From contig NW_026516219.1 of assembly GCF_025602895.1 (NCBI RefSeq), forward strand, positions 310,001-374,000: DNA of 64,000 nt, read 5' to 3'. Below, in pieces: positions 11,990 to 44,617 of the stretch (the stretch's first letter is position 1; each line of letters begins with the position of its first letter). Position numbers and translations under genes: made by a program. This stretch comes from Polychytrium aggregatum (lineage: Eukaryota > Chytridiomycota > Chytridiomycetes > Polychytriales). The notes under the pieces were generated by a model, which was not told the DNA's origin, did no database searches, and saw nothing but the letters and a program-made list of their open reading frames with translations.

Positions 11990-12578
11990 ACTCCTGTCTT
12001 CGTTGGTAATCGAGTGGTTTTGGTTGGTTTGGGAAGCACAGCCTTGAATACACATGGCCGATCTCCTGTGGCGATGATCGACTGGCATACCGAGATCATG
12101 TTCCTTGAGGCATTGATGTCTCGATGTGGGAGTGTGGTGGATGCATTCGACCCTCTGCACAGCTTCATGGTTTCTCGATATCAAGATGCTCGACCTTCTC
12201 GAGTCGCTTGGCTTCCCGACAATGCGAGCACACCTGGGATGTGTTGAACTCGTTCACCGAGCACACATGGATCTTGGAGACGGATCGGTCTGGTGGTCGT
12301 CTCTGGTGGTGGATGAATTGCTCGAAATACCGAGCGAACCAGAGTCTCCTGGGACTGGAAGCATATCTCTTCCCTTGCTTCCAGGAGGCATTCCCAAAGG
12401 CAATCACCACTTCGGTCTCCCTTGGACACACTTGCTTGGCCATGAATGCGATGAGTGGGTGTGTATTCAGGATCCAGAAAACAACACAGTCAAAGCTCAA
12501 AACGGGGGTGTCCCATTTCATTTTGGAAACGCTGTAAGTTGTCATTGATGTCCGGGTTTTGAACAGACTCCGACCCAT
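11990..12578 (-). pseudogene. Fanzor/TnpB-like RuvC nuclease remnant (C-terminal part)
   Basis: On the minus strand, a frame from 12578 to 12165 contains a RuvC-like strand VVIAFGNASW, then GKRYASSPRR and KIHVCSVNEFNTSQVCSHC. The latter holds the conserved Glu of RuvC motif II (NEF) and the first CxxC of the zinc ribbon, with the TS(Q/K)xCSxC signature of TnpB/OrfB and Fanzor proteins. After a stop and a frameshift, the sequence continues in another frame with HRDINASRNM at about 12100-12126, the RuvC motif III with its catalytic Asp. Downstream residues (ATGDRP..VF) match C-terminal Fanzor tails as I know them. The N-terminal wedge and RuvC motif I are absent, so this is a broken, inactive copy. 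The family call rests on motif order; sequence search would settle it. Confidence 0.72.
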
Positions 12579-12591
12579 TGCTACCGTGCCG

Positions 12592-12716
12592 AAACGGTGT
12601 GTTCAGTGTGTCTGCGAGCCGAGCGACCTGAGATGGTCGAGTATCTTGATACCGAGAAACTGTGGGGCTGTCCGGGGGATCGAATGCATCCGCCACACCC
12701 CCGTAAAGCCTGGGTG
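12592..12716 (+). pseudogene. inverted duplicate of the Fanzor zinc-ribbon segment
   Basis: The reverse complement of this stretch aligns with about 12120-12245. Both encode CSxC followed by a stretch ending EYLDTEKLWGC (here) or EHLDIEKP (other copy), then RMHPPH. Identity is high but not perfect, so the copies are old. The pair forms inverted arms around about 345 bp (12250-12590) containing the RuvC remnant. It may come from two element copies inserted tail to tail, or from an inverted duplication. Confidence 0.6.
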
Positions 12717-27577: not shown

Positions 27578-28528
27578 GAAGCTGAAACGGGTTGAGAAAG
27601 GGCGGCAAAACAAACACGATGACACAAGGGCAGAAAAGAGACACTGGAATGACAGCATCCAGGAGAGGATGGAGGAGGAGGAGGAGGAGGGGGGGGACAA
27701 AAGTGAATCGAAGGTTGTTCTTACACTCGCACACACACCTCGACACACGAACGGCAGACCAATTGAACAGAGCTGATGGGGTGGTGGTGGTGGTTTGGAA
27801 GAGGGAAAAGGAGGGGGGGAGGGAAAGCAAAAATGGATCGGTGAAAGCATGACCACTCTCTCCCAAAAGCCAGGGTTTCATTTGCAGGACGACCCCCCAC
27901 CTGATCTCTGTCGACACAAGAGGGGCCGTGAATCGCTGTGGTCGTTCGTCGTTCGTCGTGGTCGCGCCAAAGTGCCTCTTTTTTTTTTTCGGTCAGGCGA
28001 AGCTTCCAATTGATGGTGGTGATGGGCGACGGTCATGGAAGGGTCACCCGACAGCGGAACGGATACGAGATCTCCCTCACGAGATGAGTGGAGATTAGGA
28101 TTCATTGAAGGAGGAGGGGATGCACATGAACCCTGGCAGGGCAGGGCAAGGCAAGGCAAAGCTGACACGGAGAATATTATGCAGAGAGGGCGGGCGGAGC
28201 AAAAAGCACAGGGCCGGAAGAAAGAAAGAAAGAAAAAAGGGGATGGGCGGAGGAAGAGATGAAAGAAAAAGGATGGACAACGACAGATGTGAGATAAATA
28301 ATGGAAGAGAGCGAGAAAACTGAGAGGGTGACGGGTGCGACTTAGGAGAAGAGAGAGCGAAGAGGCCGAGTGAAGGGATGAGATAGAGGTGTGGCTACGC
28401 CAGAGAAGATAAAAGCAAGGACGACCTCGAGGAGGGAGGGTGTGTGGTGGAGTGAAAGAGTCGGATGACGATGATGATGATGATGATGATGGGCGATGGG
28501 GGGGGGCCAAAACTTCAGTTGGGAATTT
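26463..28528. other. 2-kb convergent intergenic region with long strand-asymmetric purine tracts
   Basis: Between the 3' ends of TRMT2A and the modular membrane-protein gene. From about 26990 to 28480 the plus strand is strongly purine-rich, with a GA dinucleotide array (about 27545-27572), GGA/GAG runs (27660-27700, 27800-27830), AGAAAGAAAG (28217-28240), several G or A homopolymers, and a (GAT)n tract at 28466-28492. On the sense strand of the leftward gene this would be a pyrimidine-rich 3' region. I see no protein gene. Confidence 0.6.
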
Positions 28529-31500
28529 TTAGACCTGGGCGCCATCAACGACCTCGACAACGGTGCCGTCGGACCTCTTGATGAGCTTCTTGACCTGGGT
28601 GTTGTACTTGACGTCGTTGCCAACGCCCTCGCTAGTGACCTCGTTTTCAGTGATGGTCTGGGTGCCATCAGGGTTGGTGACGATGGTCTTGCGGACAGCC
28701 TTGCCGTTGGCGCCGTTGCGGATCAGGTCGCGGAACTTGGCATCGTCAGCATCAACCACGTCCTGGGTGACGGTCTGGGTGCCGTCGGCGTTGGTGACGA
28801 TCCTGGGGGCGGGTAATGGCACGGGTTTATAACGTTAGTGCGACGCAGACGTCGATGGCTCGCTTATGGGAGGGGGTGCACATGATTGTTTGAAATAATG
28901 CGCCGACGGCGAACGGCACTTACTTCTTGCGGATGACCTGAGTGGTGCCAACCTTCTGGGTGGTGTTGGTCGTGGTCGTGGTGACGGTCTGGGGCGGAAG
29001 GCGGGGATAGAGCCGCAGGCGAATTAGAAACGGACTCGGTCTAGGCTCGGACACAGCTGCAGTGTACGCGGGCCAAAGGATATTCGCGCAGGTAGATTGC
29101 TGCCGAAGGAGCGAGCCCTTCCCCGGCGATGAATGAAAGATAGCCAAGCCCTCCTAGTCGCAACACACACTCACCTCCTCCTCCTCGGGGGTGTTCTGGG
29201 TGGTGACATAGCTCTTCCACTCGTCGTCGTGGAGGATGTCACGGCCATCGGTCGAGATGGTCTCCTCGGTGGTGGTCTCCGAGCCGTCGGCCTTCTTGAC
29301 GATACGCTTCTTGATGACATTGCTGACCGAGGCGACAGCCGACTGTTGCTCGTGCTCGGGCACCTCTTCCTCCTCAACGGTCTGGGTACCATCGGGGTTG
29401 GTGATGATACGCTTTCGAATGACCTTGCGAAGAAGGGAAGAGTTGGTGACGGTGGTGGGCTGGCGGGAGCTTTCGTCGTCCTCGACAACCTCGACACCGT
29501 TGACAAGGCGGCGCACGGTAGTGACACTGCCGGCGGGAGGCTCGGCGCCCTCAGGGAGCTCCTCTTCAACGACAACCTCGGTGCCGTCGGGCTGGCGGAT
29601 CACACGACTGCGAGGTAGATGAGCGTAATATGCATTGTTAGCGGAAGGCTCAAGAGCGACAGTGGGCACGTCTCTCCCATGGCCACGGTTATCAAAAAAG
29701 CGTACCGAACAATGCGCTTGGTCTTCTGGAGGATGGACTCGTTGGTAGTGGGGACGGCGACGACGTTGGTCTTGCGGGTAGTGGTGGTGGTGGTGCTGTT
29801 GCCGTTGGTCTCGGGGAGTTCGACGCCCTCAGGGAGCTCCTCCTCGACAACAACTTCAGTACCATCGGGCTGGCGGATCACACGACTGGAAGGGGTTGAA
29901 AATGAGCAAGTCACGTTTGATAAGTGTCGGGCCCATAATTGCACAGTGATCCCGATGCCTCATTCGCTGCAGTGGGCACGTCCCTCCCATGGTCACGGTT
30001 ATCAAAAAAGCGTACCGAACAATGCGCTTGGTCTTCTGGAGGATGGACTCGTTGGTAGTGGGGACGGCGACGACGTTGGTCTTGCGGGTAGTGGTGGTGG
30101 TGGTGCTGTTGCCGTTGGTCTCGGGGAGTTCGACGCCCTCAGGGAGCTCCTCCTCGACAACAACTTCAGTGCCATCGGGCTGGCGGATCACGCGTCTGTT
30201 CGGGTTCACCCCGCAAAGCGATGTGGCGTTAGACAACGTCGATTAAAGTGGCGCCGGTGGAACGCAATCCCGTGTCCGTGGCCTGCGCCCCCTCCGATTC
30301 CACCAGTAGATTCCAGAAGGCCAAGCATAGGAGCTTACCTGACAATGCGCTTAGACTTTTGGATGGTCTGGGACTGCGAAGGCTGCGGAGAACGAAACAG
30401 ACGCGAATCGAATAAGTTAGTTTGATCTTATGCAACCACAGATGGGGGAGGCCTAGGGAAAGGCTGCCACCCAAGAGAAGGGCCTGTCGCCGACAGCTTA
30501 CCTGAACAGTGGTGGTCTGGTCCTTGGATTTGCCGGTGACGAGGGTGGTGGCGGAGGCAACGGCGCCGGTAACGACGTTGGTGAAGCGCTGGGTCCAGCT
30601 GGACTCGGTGGTGGTGGGGGCGGGGGCAGGGCCTTCGGCAATCTCAACGGTGGGGATTTCGGGGAGATCTTGCTCTTCGTCGACGGGGGCAGCGGGGATC
30701 TCTTCCTCAACCTCGACACCGTTGCGGACGACTCGGCGACGAGTGACAACCTTAGAGGTCTGGGTGGTGGTCTGAGGACCGGGAACGGGAACGGGAACAG
30801 GGACAATGGTGTCGTCCTGGACGACTTGGACGACTTCGGTGGCGGTGTGCTCATGAGGATGATCGTGGTCGTGGTCGTGGCCGGTGCAGGTGCCAAGGTG
30901 GTCGTAGGTGTGCTCGGGAATGACCTCGTGGATGGGGTGGGGGACGTGGTGCTCCTCGACAACCTCCTCGACAATCTCCTCCTCGGTCGTGGGAACAAAG
31001 GTGATCTCGGACTCCTCGGTCTTAGTCTTGGGGTGTCTGATGCGCTTGATGGTCTTGGAGACGGCCGTGGTGGTCGCGGCGGCGGCACCGGCAACACCGA
31101 GGAGAACCTTCTCGGACCACTTCTTGCCGGACGACTCGGTGCCGACGGGGGACACGGGGACATCGAGGGTCTCATCGGCGCCGGGGACGGGGACAGAGTT
31201 GTATTCGGTGGTGGTGGTTTCGGTGGGGCCCTTGGCGGGGACTTCGGGAGGAATCTCATCGGTACCATAGATGGGCTGAGAGGGGATCTCGGGCAGGATC
31301 TTGTCTTCTTCGGTGGGAGCGGCAGGAACCGCCTCCTCTTCGACATCGTGGTGCTTGCGGCGACGGGTCTTGGTGACGACAGCAGCGACGGTAGCGGCGG
31401 CAGCGGCGGTGACACCGGCCAGGATGCCCAGCTTTTCGCCAGTGTGAGGTGCAGGGGCGGGGGTCTCGTAGCCAGAACCCGAGGCAACAGGGGGCACATT

Positions 31501-33666
31501 GGCAAGGGTGGTGTCCTCAACAGGGGCGCCGGGCAGGGGCTTTTCTTCCTCGACAACGGCGCCGACTTCGCTGAACGACAAGCGAGAGCCAACGGTGGCG
31601 ACAGCGGGCAGGATAGGGGCTTCCGAGGGCTGGGTCTCGACAGGGACAGCGACGTCGGTGTCTTCGCCACCACCAAGGACAACGGGGGCAATGTAGGGAA
31701 TCTCCTCGACGTTGGTGCCGACAGGGACCTCCGCAGCGTAGCCGCCAGTCTCGAGGTCGTCGACGATTCTGGCAGCGCCGGCCGTCTTGGGCTTGCGCTT
31801 GACCAGACCGGCGATGAGGAGGAGAGCCTGGAAGGTGAGGTAGCATGTTAGGTGATATATACAACGATGGCATGTACAGAGCGGCATGAGTGTTGCTGCA
31901 CATGCGCATGGCCTCCTCTCGATTCATCACCACATGCGGCATCACGGAATTACCAGGAAGAGGAGGGTGAGACCGCCACCGACACCGATCGCAACGTTGT
32001 TGGTAGAGTTGGGCGGGTAGATCAGGCCACCGCCGGGGATGCCAGGGACAATAGGTCCGTTGGGGCCGAAGGGAGCTGGGGAGTGGAAATGCAATGGGAA
32101 AGAACGAGCAGCGGCAGGGAGGATCGTCAGTTACCAGGGTCGCCAGGGATCATCCGTCGCTATGGGTAACGCGCGAGGCTTTGGGCCAGCACCTCCGACT
32201 GCTCATGCATGGAGACGACGGCCATACTTTCGGGGACGTTGCCACCGGGGATAACGGTTCCGGGGGTGGGGGTGATTGAGGCTGGTTGGAGGAGCAAGAG
32301 AGAGCAAAAATTAGTTGGGTGTTAAGCCCACCAAGTGGGTGAGAGACACGACACGGCGGCGTTTAAAGGGAGATCCAAGAAGCAGCGATTGACAGGGCAT
32401 GGCTCTATCGAACGGTTATAGGGCTATGATATAGCCGGAGGGAATACGTACTGCCGCCGGAAACCGAGCCAGAGACAGCGCCTGAGAAAGATGGGGGGGG
32501 AATCGATCGTCAGAAACAGAAAGGCCAGAAACACGACCATTGGTCGAGACACACGGCTGGACAGCAGACATTACCACTCGGGACGGGGCCGCCAGGAACA
32601 GTGGCGCTCACGACGCTGCCACCAGAGGCTCCGCTGGGAGAGCCAGGGACGTTAGTGGCACCTGGAAGCAATACGGAGGGATGGTCAGGAAAGTGCCAGG
32701 GCCAGGGCCAGGGCCAGGGTCAGGAAAGGGACATGGACATGGACGCGACCATTCGTGGCTGGGACGAGTTTCGCGAGGACCATGCGCCGCTGCAAACGTA
32801 CCACTAACAGCGGGGCCGGCAGGGACGGTACCGCTGACAACGCTGCCGCCAGAGGCTCCACTGGGACCGTTCGGACCGTTCGGGCCGCCACTGGGGCCGT
32901 TGGGGCCGATCGATCCACCGCTGGGACCGTTGGGACCATTGGGTCCGCCACTAGGGCCGTTGGGACCATTGGGTCCACCGCTGGGGCCGTTGGGGCCATT
33001 GGGGCCGTTGGTGGGGCCTGGACATGATCGAGGAAGGATGTAAGGTCAGAAAATGTCCGGTTGGGTGGCAAAGGAGGCTCAGCTCAATTGGGCAGGATTT
33101 GCAGCTGGATCGAGGCTTGGATCTGCTGTCTGGCGATGCAGGCACAGAGTCGGCAAGGGCTTACCTCCAGGAACGCTACCGGTCAGGGTGACAACGACTG
33201 ATAAAACAGCACAGAGCGAGCAAGGGAGGGAGAGAGGTGTCAGCGAGGACCATGCACACTTGGATCGCGTCGGGGAGATCGTGCCCGGGCCTGGTCGGGG
33301 GATCTGCCGGCCTGAACCCAGCCAGACAGCGCTGCAGAAGAACAACAGGACACCAAGCCAAGCCACATATCTCTGGTCTCATCAGCAAGAGCAGTCAAAG
33401 AACGCACCACCGCCAGAGCTGCCACCGCCGGGGGCGGTGGTCTGAGTGCCGATGTAGGTGGTGTAGCCATTGATGACGGTCGGGGTGCCGACGTAGACAG
33501 GGGTGCCGGTGGGGGTGTAGTTCGGGACGGCGGTGGGAGTGCCGGTGCTGGTCAGGCAGTCGATGTTGACGGAAGGAGCGCGAGCATAGACGGGAGCGGC
33601 GGTAATGGTGGTAGTCGGGGTGGGAGTGAGAGAACGCTTCTCAAGATGGGGTGGCATGGCGACCAT
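28529..33666 (-). CDS. modular membrane protein: collagen-like outer region, one span, DGT-repeat tail
   Basis: No known ortholog recognised. Fourteen exons join in phase (33408-33666, 33165-33197, 32802-33017, 32575-32661, 32452-32481, 32228-32281, 31954-32075, 30502-31827, 30339-30373, 30016-30195, 29706-29885, 29175-29607, 28924-28988, 28529-28802), 1,097 residues. Residues 1-86 are Thr/Pro-rich; about 98-170 are collagen-like (GPNGPNGPSGG repeated); Gly/Ser/Pro exons follow, then one span (about 253-277) built across a splice junction (VAIGVGGGLTLLFL + ALLLIAGLVKRKPK). The 800-residue tail has VPVPVP, an HDHDHDHPHEH cluster, a second Ala-rich stretch, and at least seven copies of a motif (R or N)xxDGTxxxxEE, for example VIRQPDGTEVVVEEELPEG. 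The first ATG is at 33666; a signal-peptide-like frame runs upstream without an ATG to 33738. Probably a surface/wall-to-cytoplasm linker; that role is inference. Confidence 0.8.
29661..30195 (-). repeat. tandem 310-bp-period duplication containing a whole exon
   Basis: A block of about 225 bp at 29661-29885 recurs at 29971-30195 with only a few differences, including in intron sequence (for example CACGTCTCTCCCATGG versus CACGTCCCTCCCATGG). Each block holds a 180-nt exon coding an identical 60-residue unit. Identity in non-coding bases points to a recent duplication. Confidence 0.93.
32802..33017 (-). repeat. collagen-like GPN/GPS coding repeat
   Basis: This exon encodes about 70 residues dominated by Gly-Pro-Asn and Gly-Pro-Ser triplets in a ten-residue (30-bp) super-repeat. 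It is flanked by introns of the same phase (1-1), so copy-number change or skipping would keep the frame. Confidence 0.85.
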
Positions 33667-35649
33667 GGTGGGAAGGAACTGAGGGGGAAGGAGCACAGCA
33701 GCAGAAACGGCAGCCAGCAGAGATGGTTGCAAAGACAAGCGCTTTCAGATTAAGGCTTGGACGAGCGAGAAGACCAGGGCCAGCAGATGGCGATATTCTC
33801 GAGGCAGAGACAGGGCAAGGGCTGAAGACTCGTTCGATTCGGCAGCCGTCCAGAGAGGCGGGAAGCGCGAGGAGCGAGATAGATAAATAAATAAGCGTCG
33901 CGGGAGATGCGGGCCGGGAAAGCAGAAGGCGACCAAGGGCAAGGCCGAGCGACCAGCAGGATGATATATCGGCCACGAGCCGGACGGATGGAGAGCCGGC
34001 AAGAGGCGCCAGGGTGGATGCGGCGAGAAGAGAAGCGCGGCGCGGCGAGACGGTCCCCGAGCAGCGCAAGAGAGAGCAACAAAGAGCGGCGACAGTCTTA
34101 TTATTTTTCTGATTTTTTTTTTCTCTCTGGCGGACGAGAGCGGCGAGAGCGGCCGCGCAGTGGGGCTTGCTGTTGCGGATGTGGTTGTGGCGGTTGTGGT
34201 GGTTGCTGTGTGGTGGTGGTTACTGTGTGGTGGCGGTTACTGTGTGGTGGTGGTTGCTATGGTGATCGCAGACCGTGGCAGAAGCATCGATAGCAGCATC
34301 GATAGCAGCATCGATCGCTCTATCGATCGCTCTATCGATATCGACAGCAGCCGCTGGTGTGTCCGCGGCCGGAATTGTCGCAATCGCCCGCGGTGTCGGC
34401 GCTGCTGGTGGCGAGATGCCCGAGTGGAGCAATCGACTCTCATCCACCACCACGTCTCCCGCAAGCGCCCTCTCTGTCCCTTGCAGGCGGGGGAGCTACA
34501 CCCTTGCCTGACGCAAGCCTCGCGCTGCACAGGTCGATGGTGCGGGGGGGGAGGGCAAATGGAGCTGCACAGCAGAGCAGACACCCGGCGGCATGCACCA
34601 GGCAGGACAAGCCAGAACATGCCAGGACCACCCAGGTCAAGACGACCCAGGTCAAGACAAGACGCATAGAGCCTGGTGGGACGCACCGCACCATGATGGG
34701 CATATCGCGCCGGAAGAGCTCTCCCGCGACAGACATGGGCTGCGGCAAAGTGTCCTGCCGGCTGGCACAAAGGCCGGGAGACAGCCAGCGGCGCGGCCCT
34801 GCCGTGCGACGGAGGCGTGTGTACACCACGCGTCGCGCGTCTGTGGCGGTGCGCTGTGCGCGCCGGTGCAGTGTCTGTTGGCGTTCCAGGAATCAACAGG
34901 AAACAATAGGAATCAATAGGAAGCAATAGGAATCAATAGGAAGCAATGGGAAGCAATGGGAATCAATGACCGGCTGCGACTGTTTCTCCAGCAACATCCA
35001 CCAGCAACATCCACCAGCAACATCCACCACCACTCGGGCTGCACCCGCCCATGTGCCGATCCATGACTCAGTCCAAATGCGTCGCACGCCATTCCCGCAC
35101 GCCGCTGAGTCAATCCCGTTCGCCGCCGTCCTCTGCTGTGCGTGCCACCGACCTCGCACAGGCCTGACCCTTCCTCAGCACCATCCGTCGCCGTCGCCGT
35201 CGTCGCATGACGGAGGGTCCTTGCGCGTCTCGCTGCCGCCATGCCCCGTCCTCCACCACCGCGAGCTCATGCAGCCGGTCCCATGGTCATCTCTGTCAAT
35301 GGATCCGCCAGCGCTTCCTTTCCGTCACATCCCAGTCGCCATCCGGCTTGCTACCTTCTCGGGCTGCGCCTCGCATGGCTTTCGAACCATCGGCCAGAAT
35401 CAAAGGAGCCTCCCCCCTCGCCGGTGCCCCCTGCTCCTGAGATGGCGCATTCGGACAGCGGCAAGGGCGCTCGAAGAACGGTCGACCGAGAACGGCAGCG
35501 TCGCACCACAGCATCACCAAGAATGGAGCTGGCTGCAAGTTCAAAATACTCCAGCGCATTCTTGGACGAGGTCTGCAATTTCTTCACGTGTTGCTGCAGG
35601 GGTGGCAGGCCAAACAACATGGGTGGTTTCTGCATCGGCCACCGCGTCT
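33667..35649. other. intergenic region upstream of the modular membrane gene, with minisatellites
   Basis: On the minus strand no ATG occurs from 33667 to beyond 34080, so the leftward gene has either a long ATG-free leader or a non-ATG start. AT-rich blocks (ATAAATAAATAAG near 33883-33896, TTATTATTTTTC near 34098) could be core-promoter elements. Repeats: GATAGCAGCATC (34287-34320), GTCAAGACGACCCAG (34637-34660), a 10-bp GGAATCAATA/GGAAGCAATA array (about 34888-34968), and CATCCACCAGCAA (34995-35030). No gene recognised. Confidence 0.5.
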
Positions 35650-43979: not shown

Positions 43980-44279
43980 TGCTCTGGCTGCGCACTTCAT
44001 TAGCCGCGCCCAATCAGCCGCAGCGGCCGAGCTAATTCGCCCATTGGCCGCGGCAGCGCGCACGTGTGTGCAACAAGCCCCTGTGCGACCGCCTCCGATC
44101 ACACTTTTCTTCCTCCCACATCCCACGTGATGCTGGCGAGGGCCGACGCCGTGGGTATAAATTGCGGGCCTCGGCCGCATCCCTCTCTTTTTCCCCATCG
44201 ACCAACTCTAAAGGATCATATTTATAGTTAGTCGTCTAGTCTTCGTTTTCCAAACGAGACACACACATCACCGTAGAAG
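43980..44279 (+). promoter_or_regulatory. well-formed core promoter with CCAAT, E-box and TATA elements
   Basis: In order: CCAAT at 44009-44013 (CGCCCAATCAGC), an inverted CCAAT (ATTGG) at 44043-44047, CACGTG at 44124-44129, TATAAAT at 44156-44162, a pyrimidine tract CCCTCTCTTTTTCCCC at about 44180-44195, an A/T-rich leader, and ATG at 44280. Spacing fits a strong RNA polymerase II promoter pointing right. Confidence 0.55.
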
Positions 44280-44363
44280 ATGAGCCGTTACGCCACCATC
44301 ATAGCGGGAAGTGCGAAGTTTCAGTGTCTGGTCTCTTCTCTGAAGGACCCCTGCTTCGGTTGA
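44280..44363 (+). CDS. possible 27-residue small protein or orphan first exon
   Basis: The first ATG after the promoter opens a 27-codon frame (MSRYATIIAGSAKF...) ending at TGA 44361-44363. No family is recognised. It could be a small protein, the 5' end of a gene whose remainder is lost, the leader of a non-coding RNA, or chance. The strong promoter context is the only support. Confidence 0.25.
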   Translation: MSRYATIIAGSAKFQCLVSSLKDPCFG

Positions 44364-44617
44364 AGACTGCTCTCGTTCCTGCATCCACAGGACGAGAACG
44401 ATGGTTGGCGTGGTCTGATACGGTCGACTGTGTGTGTTCTCGGCTGCTGCCTGGTCGCTGTGGATTGAGTACGAGCAGGTTGTCCTCGTCCAACCAGCAT
44501 CGCTGATGCGCTCGCATGATGCACAAAATGGGGATGGGTGTATTCGCCATGACAGGAAACAAATTGCATGTGGACAGACAATAAGGCGGGTGTGAAGGGT
44601 CAGAAGTAGTAGGGGCG

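Follow-up and report, generated by a model that had tools for sequence, protein, structure and literature searches.

The 64,000-nucleotide window of the Polychytrium aggregatum genome analysed here (contig NW_026516219.1, positions 310,001 to 374,000) carries, at 28529-33666 on its minus strand, a gene of 14 exons whose predicted product combines a Gly/Pro/Thr/Ser-rich N-terminal region, a strongly hydrophobic span and a long tail in which ten short units share one arrangement of charge around a DG or NG turn. All statements about the protein rest on the genomic sequence and on predicted structure. We suggest that this single-locus gene of a zoosporic fungus may encode a bitopic protein that sits in the plasma membrane or otherwise faces the surface. 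On its outer side, a stalk of about 252 residues, probably unstructured and O-glycosylated, would lie within or touch the wall or coat; inside, an 825-residue cytoplasmic tail, mostly flexible and acidic, would bear three Ala-rich helices and ten β-hairpins, all of them short; nine of the hairpins would lie toward the C-terminus. Each hairpin would pair a basic strand, ahead of the DG/NG turn, with an acidic strand behind it, so that the hairpins could stack within or between molecules and the tail could thereby act as a multivalent chain of stickers, which, on engagement of the stalk, may cluster the protein or link it to the cortex. Taken as a whole, this mechanism of surface stalk, one span and self-associating tail is tentative, and we give it somewhat less than even credence; its weakest links are export with no visible signal peptide and the predicted hairpin fold.

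Chytrid cell biology is poorly understood, as stated in the abstract of PMC7341943, and the coupling of the surface to the cytoplasm is part of that biology. If true, the combination of stalk, span and self-complementary hairpin tail would offer a concrete candidate for this coupling, as well as a case of module growth through exon duplication. Homologues spread widely among chytrids would define a new repeat family; otherwise this would be an orphan low-complexity gene.

Charge-patterned turn units in the tail

The sequence DG[T/S] occurs eight times in the tail, against a mean of 0.47 and a maximum of 4 in 2,000 shuffles. A profile of the DGT unit likewise finds eight matches at 23-46 bits, with the best shuffle at 7.9 bits and a positive score in 11 of 500 shuffles, the profile having been made from seven of its eight matching units, which match by construction. 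Two degenerate NGV units, at residues 636 and 880, stand in addition to the eight DGT/DGS units. The original prediction had the DGT motif recurring over a tail of about 800 residues; the repeat is real, but its units are confined to residues 719-1100 and do not fill the tail.

None of the ten units has an Asp or Glu among the 12 residues that precede the turn, and nine have no Lys or Arg among the 13 that follow it, the other unit having a single Arg. The mean drop in net charge over the turn is 8.5, a value not attained in any of 10,000 random draws from the tail, with the limit that the units were selected by motif and are kin by descent. The pattern persists among units down to 18% identity to the first, and suggests charge-complementary β-hairpins, the fold itself being a prediction. 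An AlphaFold2 model of exon 12 (four-row alignment, mean pLDDT 39.2) places strands on either side of the exon's three DG turns, and a model of exon 8 from sequence alone (mean pLDDT 43.5) folds the NGV turn at 636 into a hairpin and draws the three Ala-rich copies, described below, as helices.

Parts of the tail exceed the cut-off (22 bits) of the Pfam family Fibrinogen_aC (PF12160): exon 14 alone scores 24.1 bits, the C-terminal 230 residues 28.0 bits and a 70-residue piece (units 1016 and 1055) 28.2 bits. In controls for exon 14 the family appeared in none of four shuffles and not in the one reversal; one shuffle did match another, unrelated family (E 0.0083). A search of the host's own genome with PF12160 returned no match, this locus included, and is too blunt to count. 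Sequence comparison with the PDB gave nothing below E 0.05, the non-significant matches being to 2baf (E 0.39 and 0.46) and 2jor (E 0.12); for exon 8 the sole match was His-rich. The likeness to fibrinogen αC (PF12160; 2baf, 2jor) consists of a short V/T-rich stretch, an N-x-DG turn and a T/E-rich stretch, and the αC region of fibrinogen contains a β-hairpin (PMC7186824). In fibrinogen αC the Cys pair around the hairpin forms a disulphide, and two Cys are visible in the aligned stretch of 2baf, whereas the present protein, with Cys only at 37 and 581 and none later, has no pair bracketing the hairpin. It differs further in being fungal, in its many tandem copies and in its predicted intracellular location. 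Because the fibrinogen Cys pair is missing here, and because we know of no intermediate between the fibrinogen αC hairpin and the DGT units, the match is probably a resemblance and not membership, reflecting a similar hairpin reached by convergence. The wider proposal, that Ala-rich helices and charge-complementary DG-turn hairpins make up a new repeat module, convergent with fibrinogen αC, which serves as an intracellular multivalent sticker from wall stalk to cortex and has recently grown by tandem duplication of a phase 2-2 exon, is unlikely to hold in all its parts.

Several observations weigh against the proposed mechanism. Both AlphaFold2 models are of low confidence and should be taken as hints only, and the exon-12 model runs a single unbroken strand through the NGV turn at 880 in place of a hairpin. 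For Fibrinogen_aC, exon 12 (12.8 bits) and one 71-residue part of that exon (12.7 bits) both fall below the cut-off, and the family is not listed for exon 8, for the exon-10-type unit, for a 401-residue tail or for the full length. The absence of a visible signal peptide leaves the export of the 252-residue N-terminus unexplained. Finally, the title of PMC7186824 denies the fibrinogen αC regions a direct part in polymerisation, which makes self-association by analogy weaker.

Gene structure, alleles and exon duplication

The splice model of the original prediction was reproduced: all 13 introns are GT-AG, and the exons join in a single open frame of 3303 nt, encoding 1,100 amino acids plus a stop, with no internal stop over the 1,100 codons. 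Recomputation also returned the phase 1-1 borders that had been reported for every exon from 2 to 6 (33165-33197 to 32228-32281). The exons are as follows.

33408..33666 (-): exon 1, N-terminal Thr/Pro-rich region, residues 1-86, with one Cys (37) and LEKR near the N-terminus
33165..33197 (-): exon 2, 33 nt, phase 1-1
32802..33017 (-): exon 3, 216 nt, phase 1-1, with the GGPNGPNGPS decapeptide minisatellite
32575..32661 (-): exon 4, 87 nt, phase 1-1, its DNA 73% identical to the end of exon 3 (repeat D7)
32452..32481 (-): exon 5, 30 nt, phase 1-1
32228..32281 (-): exon 6, 54 nt, phase 1-1
31954..32075 (-): exon 7, phase 1-0, juxtamembrane region and initial part of the predicted transmembrane span (31954-31998)
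30502..31827 (-): exon 8, 442 residues, end of the span (31804-31827), KRKPK, then much of the tail
30339..30382 (-): exon 9, from the splice model
30016..30195 (-): exon 10, 180 nt, phase 2-2, one DGT turn and linker
29706..29885 (-): exon 11, phase 2-2, tandem copy of exon 10
29175..29607 (-): exon 12, three DGT/DGS turns (the first unit starts in exon 11) and one NGV turn
28924..28988 (-): exon 13, from the splice model
28529..28802 (-): exon 14, final three DGT turns (the first unit starts in exon 13) and stop; Fibrinogen_aC match above cut-off

As exons 2-6 are all of phase 1-1, the reading frame is uninformative and offers no proof of them, and in exons 2-5 the model frame is not the top-ranking one for third-position GC. 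Both observations would be compatible with a gene-model artefact, in which some of exons 2-6 are left out of the transcript or the gene is a decaying repeat gene. However, a branch-point-like CTRAY site lies 10-65 nt 5' of 12 of the 13 acceptors, the sole intron without one being that preceding exon 11, while the background in the window is 322 of 3316 YAG sites (9.7%; binomial P 8e-12 for 12/13), and such sites occur in all six introns bordering exons 2-6. Together with the uninterrupted frame and the identity of the coding sequence between alleles (see below), this renders an artefact very improbable, and we are confident that the gene is real and encodes roughly this protein.

The second haplotype is represented in the assembly by contig C30, which is 99.3-99.96% identical to the window across four large aligned blocks (window 3855-53608 versus G000:C30:40001-90000). 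Inside the gene the alleles differ at four positions, all intronic, and at none of the 3303 coding nucleotides (chance 0.016). Allelic length differences also occur on either side of the gene, upstream by a 15-nt tandem-repeat unit at 34629 and downstream at 28217, at the edge of the compared stretch, where a GAAA tract is longer in the other allele. Many loci of this genome are present as pairs, which bears on any copy-number claim drawn from it. Searching the genome with the tail (E up to 1) found the C30 allele and no paralogue; with the N-terminal part (E up to 10), 14 of 16 matches were the locus and its allele, and the other two, on C46 and C391 (E 0.86), fall where an open reading frame resembles, by eye, an ARF-type GTPase.

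A tandem duplication of 245 nt (95% identical, spacing 310), overlooked in the original prediction, covers exons 10 and 11 and extends into their introns. The two exons differ at 3 of 180 nt and the introns downstream of each begin alike, which points to a fairly recent duplication that took in the unit and part of its introns; both copies are present in each allele.

Predicted stalk, membrane span and topology

Residues 1-252 contain 23 percent Gly, 18 percent Pro, 13 percent Thr and 11 percent Ser. The GPN/GPS stretch, which had been described as collagen-like, is a ten-residue GGPNGPNGPS repeat derived from a 30-nt minisatellite (repeat D2), and because it introduces an extra Gly every ten residues, the collagen triplet register is interrupted. 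The stalk thus resembles collagen and collagen-like proteins in its G-P-N/G-P-S triplets, set in blocks of three, but breaks register at each tenth residue instead of keeping Gly at every third position over a long stretch. Gly-X-Y runs reach four or five triplets at most, which makes a triple helix unlikely, and Pfam Collagen gave no match with the full length or with fragments. From the earlier picture of a wall-to-cytoplasm linker we retain the modular protein, the one clear span and the lack of a family for the whole, but find no support for a collagen-like exterior if that is taken to mean a triple helix.

The main hydrophobic span has its best 19-residue window at 254-272 (Kyte-Doolittle 2.53). 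Only 3 Lys/Arg precede it in 252 residues, none beyond residue 29, versus KRKPK immediately C-terminal of it, and this difference supports placing the tail inside. That there is one strong span stands, but a second hydrophobic segment at 400-418 (Kyte-Doolittle 2.16), followed by TKTRRRKHH, had been overlooked. Were this segment also to cross, the DGT repeats would be extracellular and would serve the wall or coat as adhesive repeats of the bacterial surface-repeat or fibrinogen-like kind. Besides its hydropathy, such a two-span arrangement could draw on the N-glycosylation sequons (six after the span versus two before, four of the six in the duplicated exons) and on weak matches to the bacterial LPXTG anchor (PF00746, Gram_pos_anchor; 13.5 and 15 of 20 bits, E 0.07 and 0.024, at segment 400-418) and to the Collagen-flanked surface repeat (PF19079, CFSR; 14.0-17.3 of 27 bits in four fragments). 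These matches are below cut-off and at chance level, given that one of the four shuffles produced an unrelated family; the DGT-type units do align weakly with CFSR, but at a level that a shuffle reached for another family. The basic stretch after 400-418 opposes export of the downstream part, and the summed insertion score, on a scale without position dependence, is -2.29 at 254-272 versus +0.46 at 400-418, the next best segment. We consider the two-span arrangement quite improbable.

Segments 400-418 and 509-527 are copies of one repeat (Smith-Waterman 77 versus a best of 48 in 1,000 shuffles). A third Ala-rich copy at about 677-700 is weakly related to the second (score 46, equalled by 4 of 1,000 shuffles) and shows no significant relation to the first, with 183 of 1,000 shuffles reaching the score. 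The stretch EEEAVPAAP...LPEIP that follows the first helix reappears after the NGV turn at 636. The tail may thus go back to one ancestral composite in which a helix was followed by a basic stretch, a hairpin, an acidic stretch and a Pro-rich linker. The His/Asp cluster and the VPVPVP run of the original prediction are both present in exon 8, which holds these features:

31348..31437 (-): predicted Ala-rich helix A, residues 398-427, containing hydrophobic segment 400-418 (low-confidence model)
31036..31128 (-): predicted Ala-rich helix B, residues 501-531, repeat of A (low-confidence model)
30847..30882 (-): His/Asp cluster GHDHDHDHPHEH, from sequence
30781..30804 (-): VPVPVPVP, from sequence
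30700..30741 (-): predicted degenerate NGV hairpin, residues 630-643 (structure model and charge count)
30532..30600 (-): predicted Ala-rich helix C, residues 677-699, weakly related to B

With regard to export, the ATG at 33666 has a Kozak-like context (CCCACCATGG) and is followed by no hydrophobic leader (MVAMPPHLEKRSLTP), as judged by sequence and hydropathy with no predictor run. The two upstream AG sites that preserve the open frame both lack a CTRAY site in the preceding 10-65 nt, in a test placed one base away from the exact acceptor. These findings would suit an internal-membrane or soluble low-complexity protein without a signal peptide, whose supposed exterior is cytosolic. Against this stands a strong span with positive residues on its C-terminal side, and an upstream exon is possible, one of the two AG sites being placed to add a hydrophobic leader-like stretch; we regard a cytosolic N-terminus as improbable. 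An upstream signal-peptide exon was rejected for the only two listed candidates (ATG 34703 and 34736, in one frame), whose sole pattern donor precedes the hydrophobic part. Directly 5' of the ATG, the in-frame stretch 33667-33741 (-) (RLSLQPSLLAAVSAAVLLPPQFLPT) is leader-like and without an ATG; it could be due to chance in a pyrimidine-rich leader, or be the end of an unseen upstream exon.

Known families, host and neighbourhood

In agreement with the original prediction, the whole protein matches no known family: a full-length Pfam scan (E up to 1) was without a match above cut-off, and across the host's own genome, Pfam and PDB we found no placement of the whole protein in a characterised family; such a placement is what the prediction itself had named as grounds for giving it up. 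The eukaryotic comparison covered these three sources, and orphan status is not claimed. NCBIfam gave nothing above cut-off for four fragments. None of 96 and none of 20 pattern matches in viral contigs, and none of 294 in prokaryotic genome contigs, were confirmed, which says little on fungi. Literature searches returned no paper for the DGT motif strings or for 'collagen-flanked surface repeat', and among the best matches on related topics, the titles and abstract openings name no such protein.

The closest comparison in layout is with the wall sensors of yeast, which according to PMC6685044 have a long wall-anchored extracellular part, one span and a short C-terminal cytoplasmic tail. The present protein, as predicted, shares with Wsc1, Mid2 and Mtl1 the long extracellular part, the single span and the C-terminal cytoplasmic tail; a single span and a Ser/Thr-rich stalk of the Wsc/Mid2 type were both found, with segment 400-418 leaving some doubt on 'single'. 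It differs in having no WSC domain, no visible signal peptide in the model and a far longer, repeat-built tail, and we use the comparison as a working analogy, not as membership. It does raise the alternative of a Wsc/Mid2/Mtl-type wall stress sensor or signalling mucin, whose stalk would sense strain and whose tail would recruit an exchange factor, the hairpin repeats being a fast-evolving spacer. The shared layout and the presence of WSC domains elsewhere in the host genome are consistent with this. Within the protein, however, the full-length Pfam scan found neither a WSC nor any other named sensor domain; yeast sensor tails are described as short (PMC6685044) versus 825 residues here, and a charge pattern kept at 18% identity is unlike a neutral spacer. 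A sensor of this type seems doubtful to us, and the self-associating tail remains our preferred, if tentative, reading.

The host genome comprises 64.7 Mb in 418 contigs. A radial-spoke protein profile matches it and none of 14 control genomes, and chitin synthase gives 71 matches, a family that also matches four of the 14 controls. The radial-spoke protein and the chitin synthases suggest that the host is a flagellated fungus, and only through these does a role in the zoospore become plausible.

The neighbourhood of the gene looks ordinary, with a ribosomal protein L5 gene (Pfam) and, named by eye, phosphate-transporter-like, MiaB-like and ABC-F-like open reading frames nearby. Chytrids carry Fanzor/TnpB elements, and the open reading frame at 12168-12602 (-), which has a sub-threshold Cas12f1-like_TNB match (PF07282, E 0.0014, 19.2/26.3 bits) and a C-x2-C near its end, is possibly a Fanzor/TnpB-type remnant. 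A U3 small nucleolar RNA lies at 44197-44423 (+), with a score of 69.8 bits.

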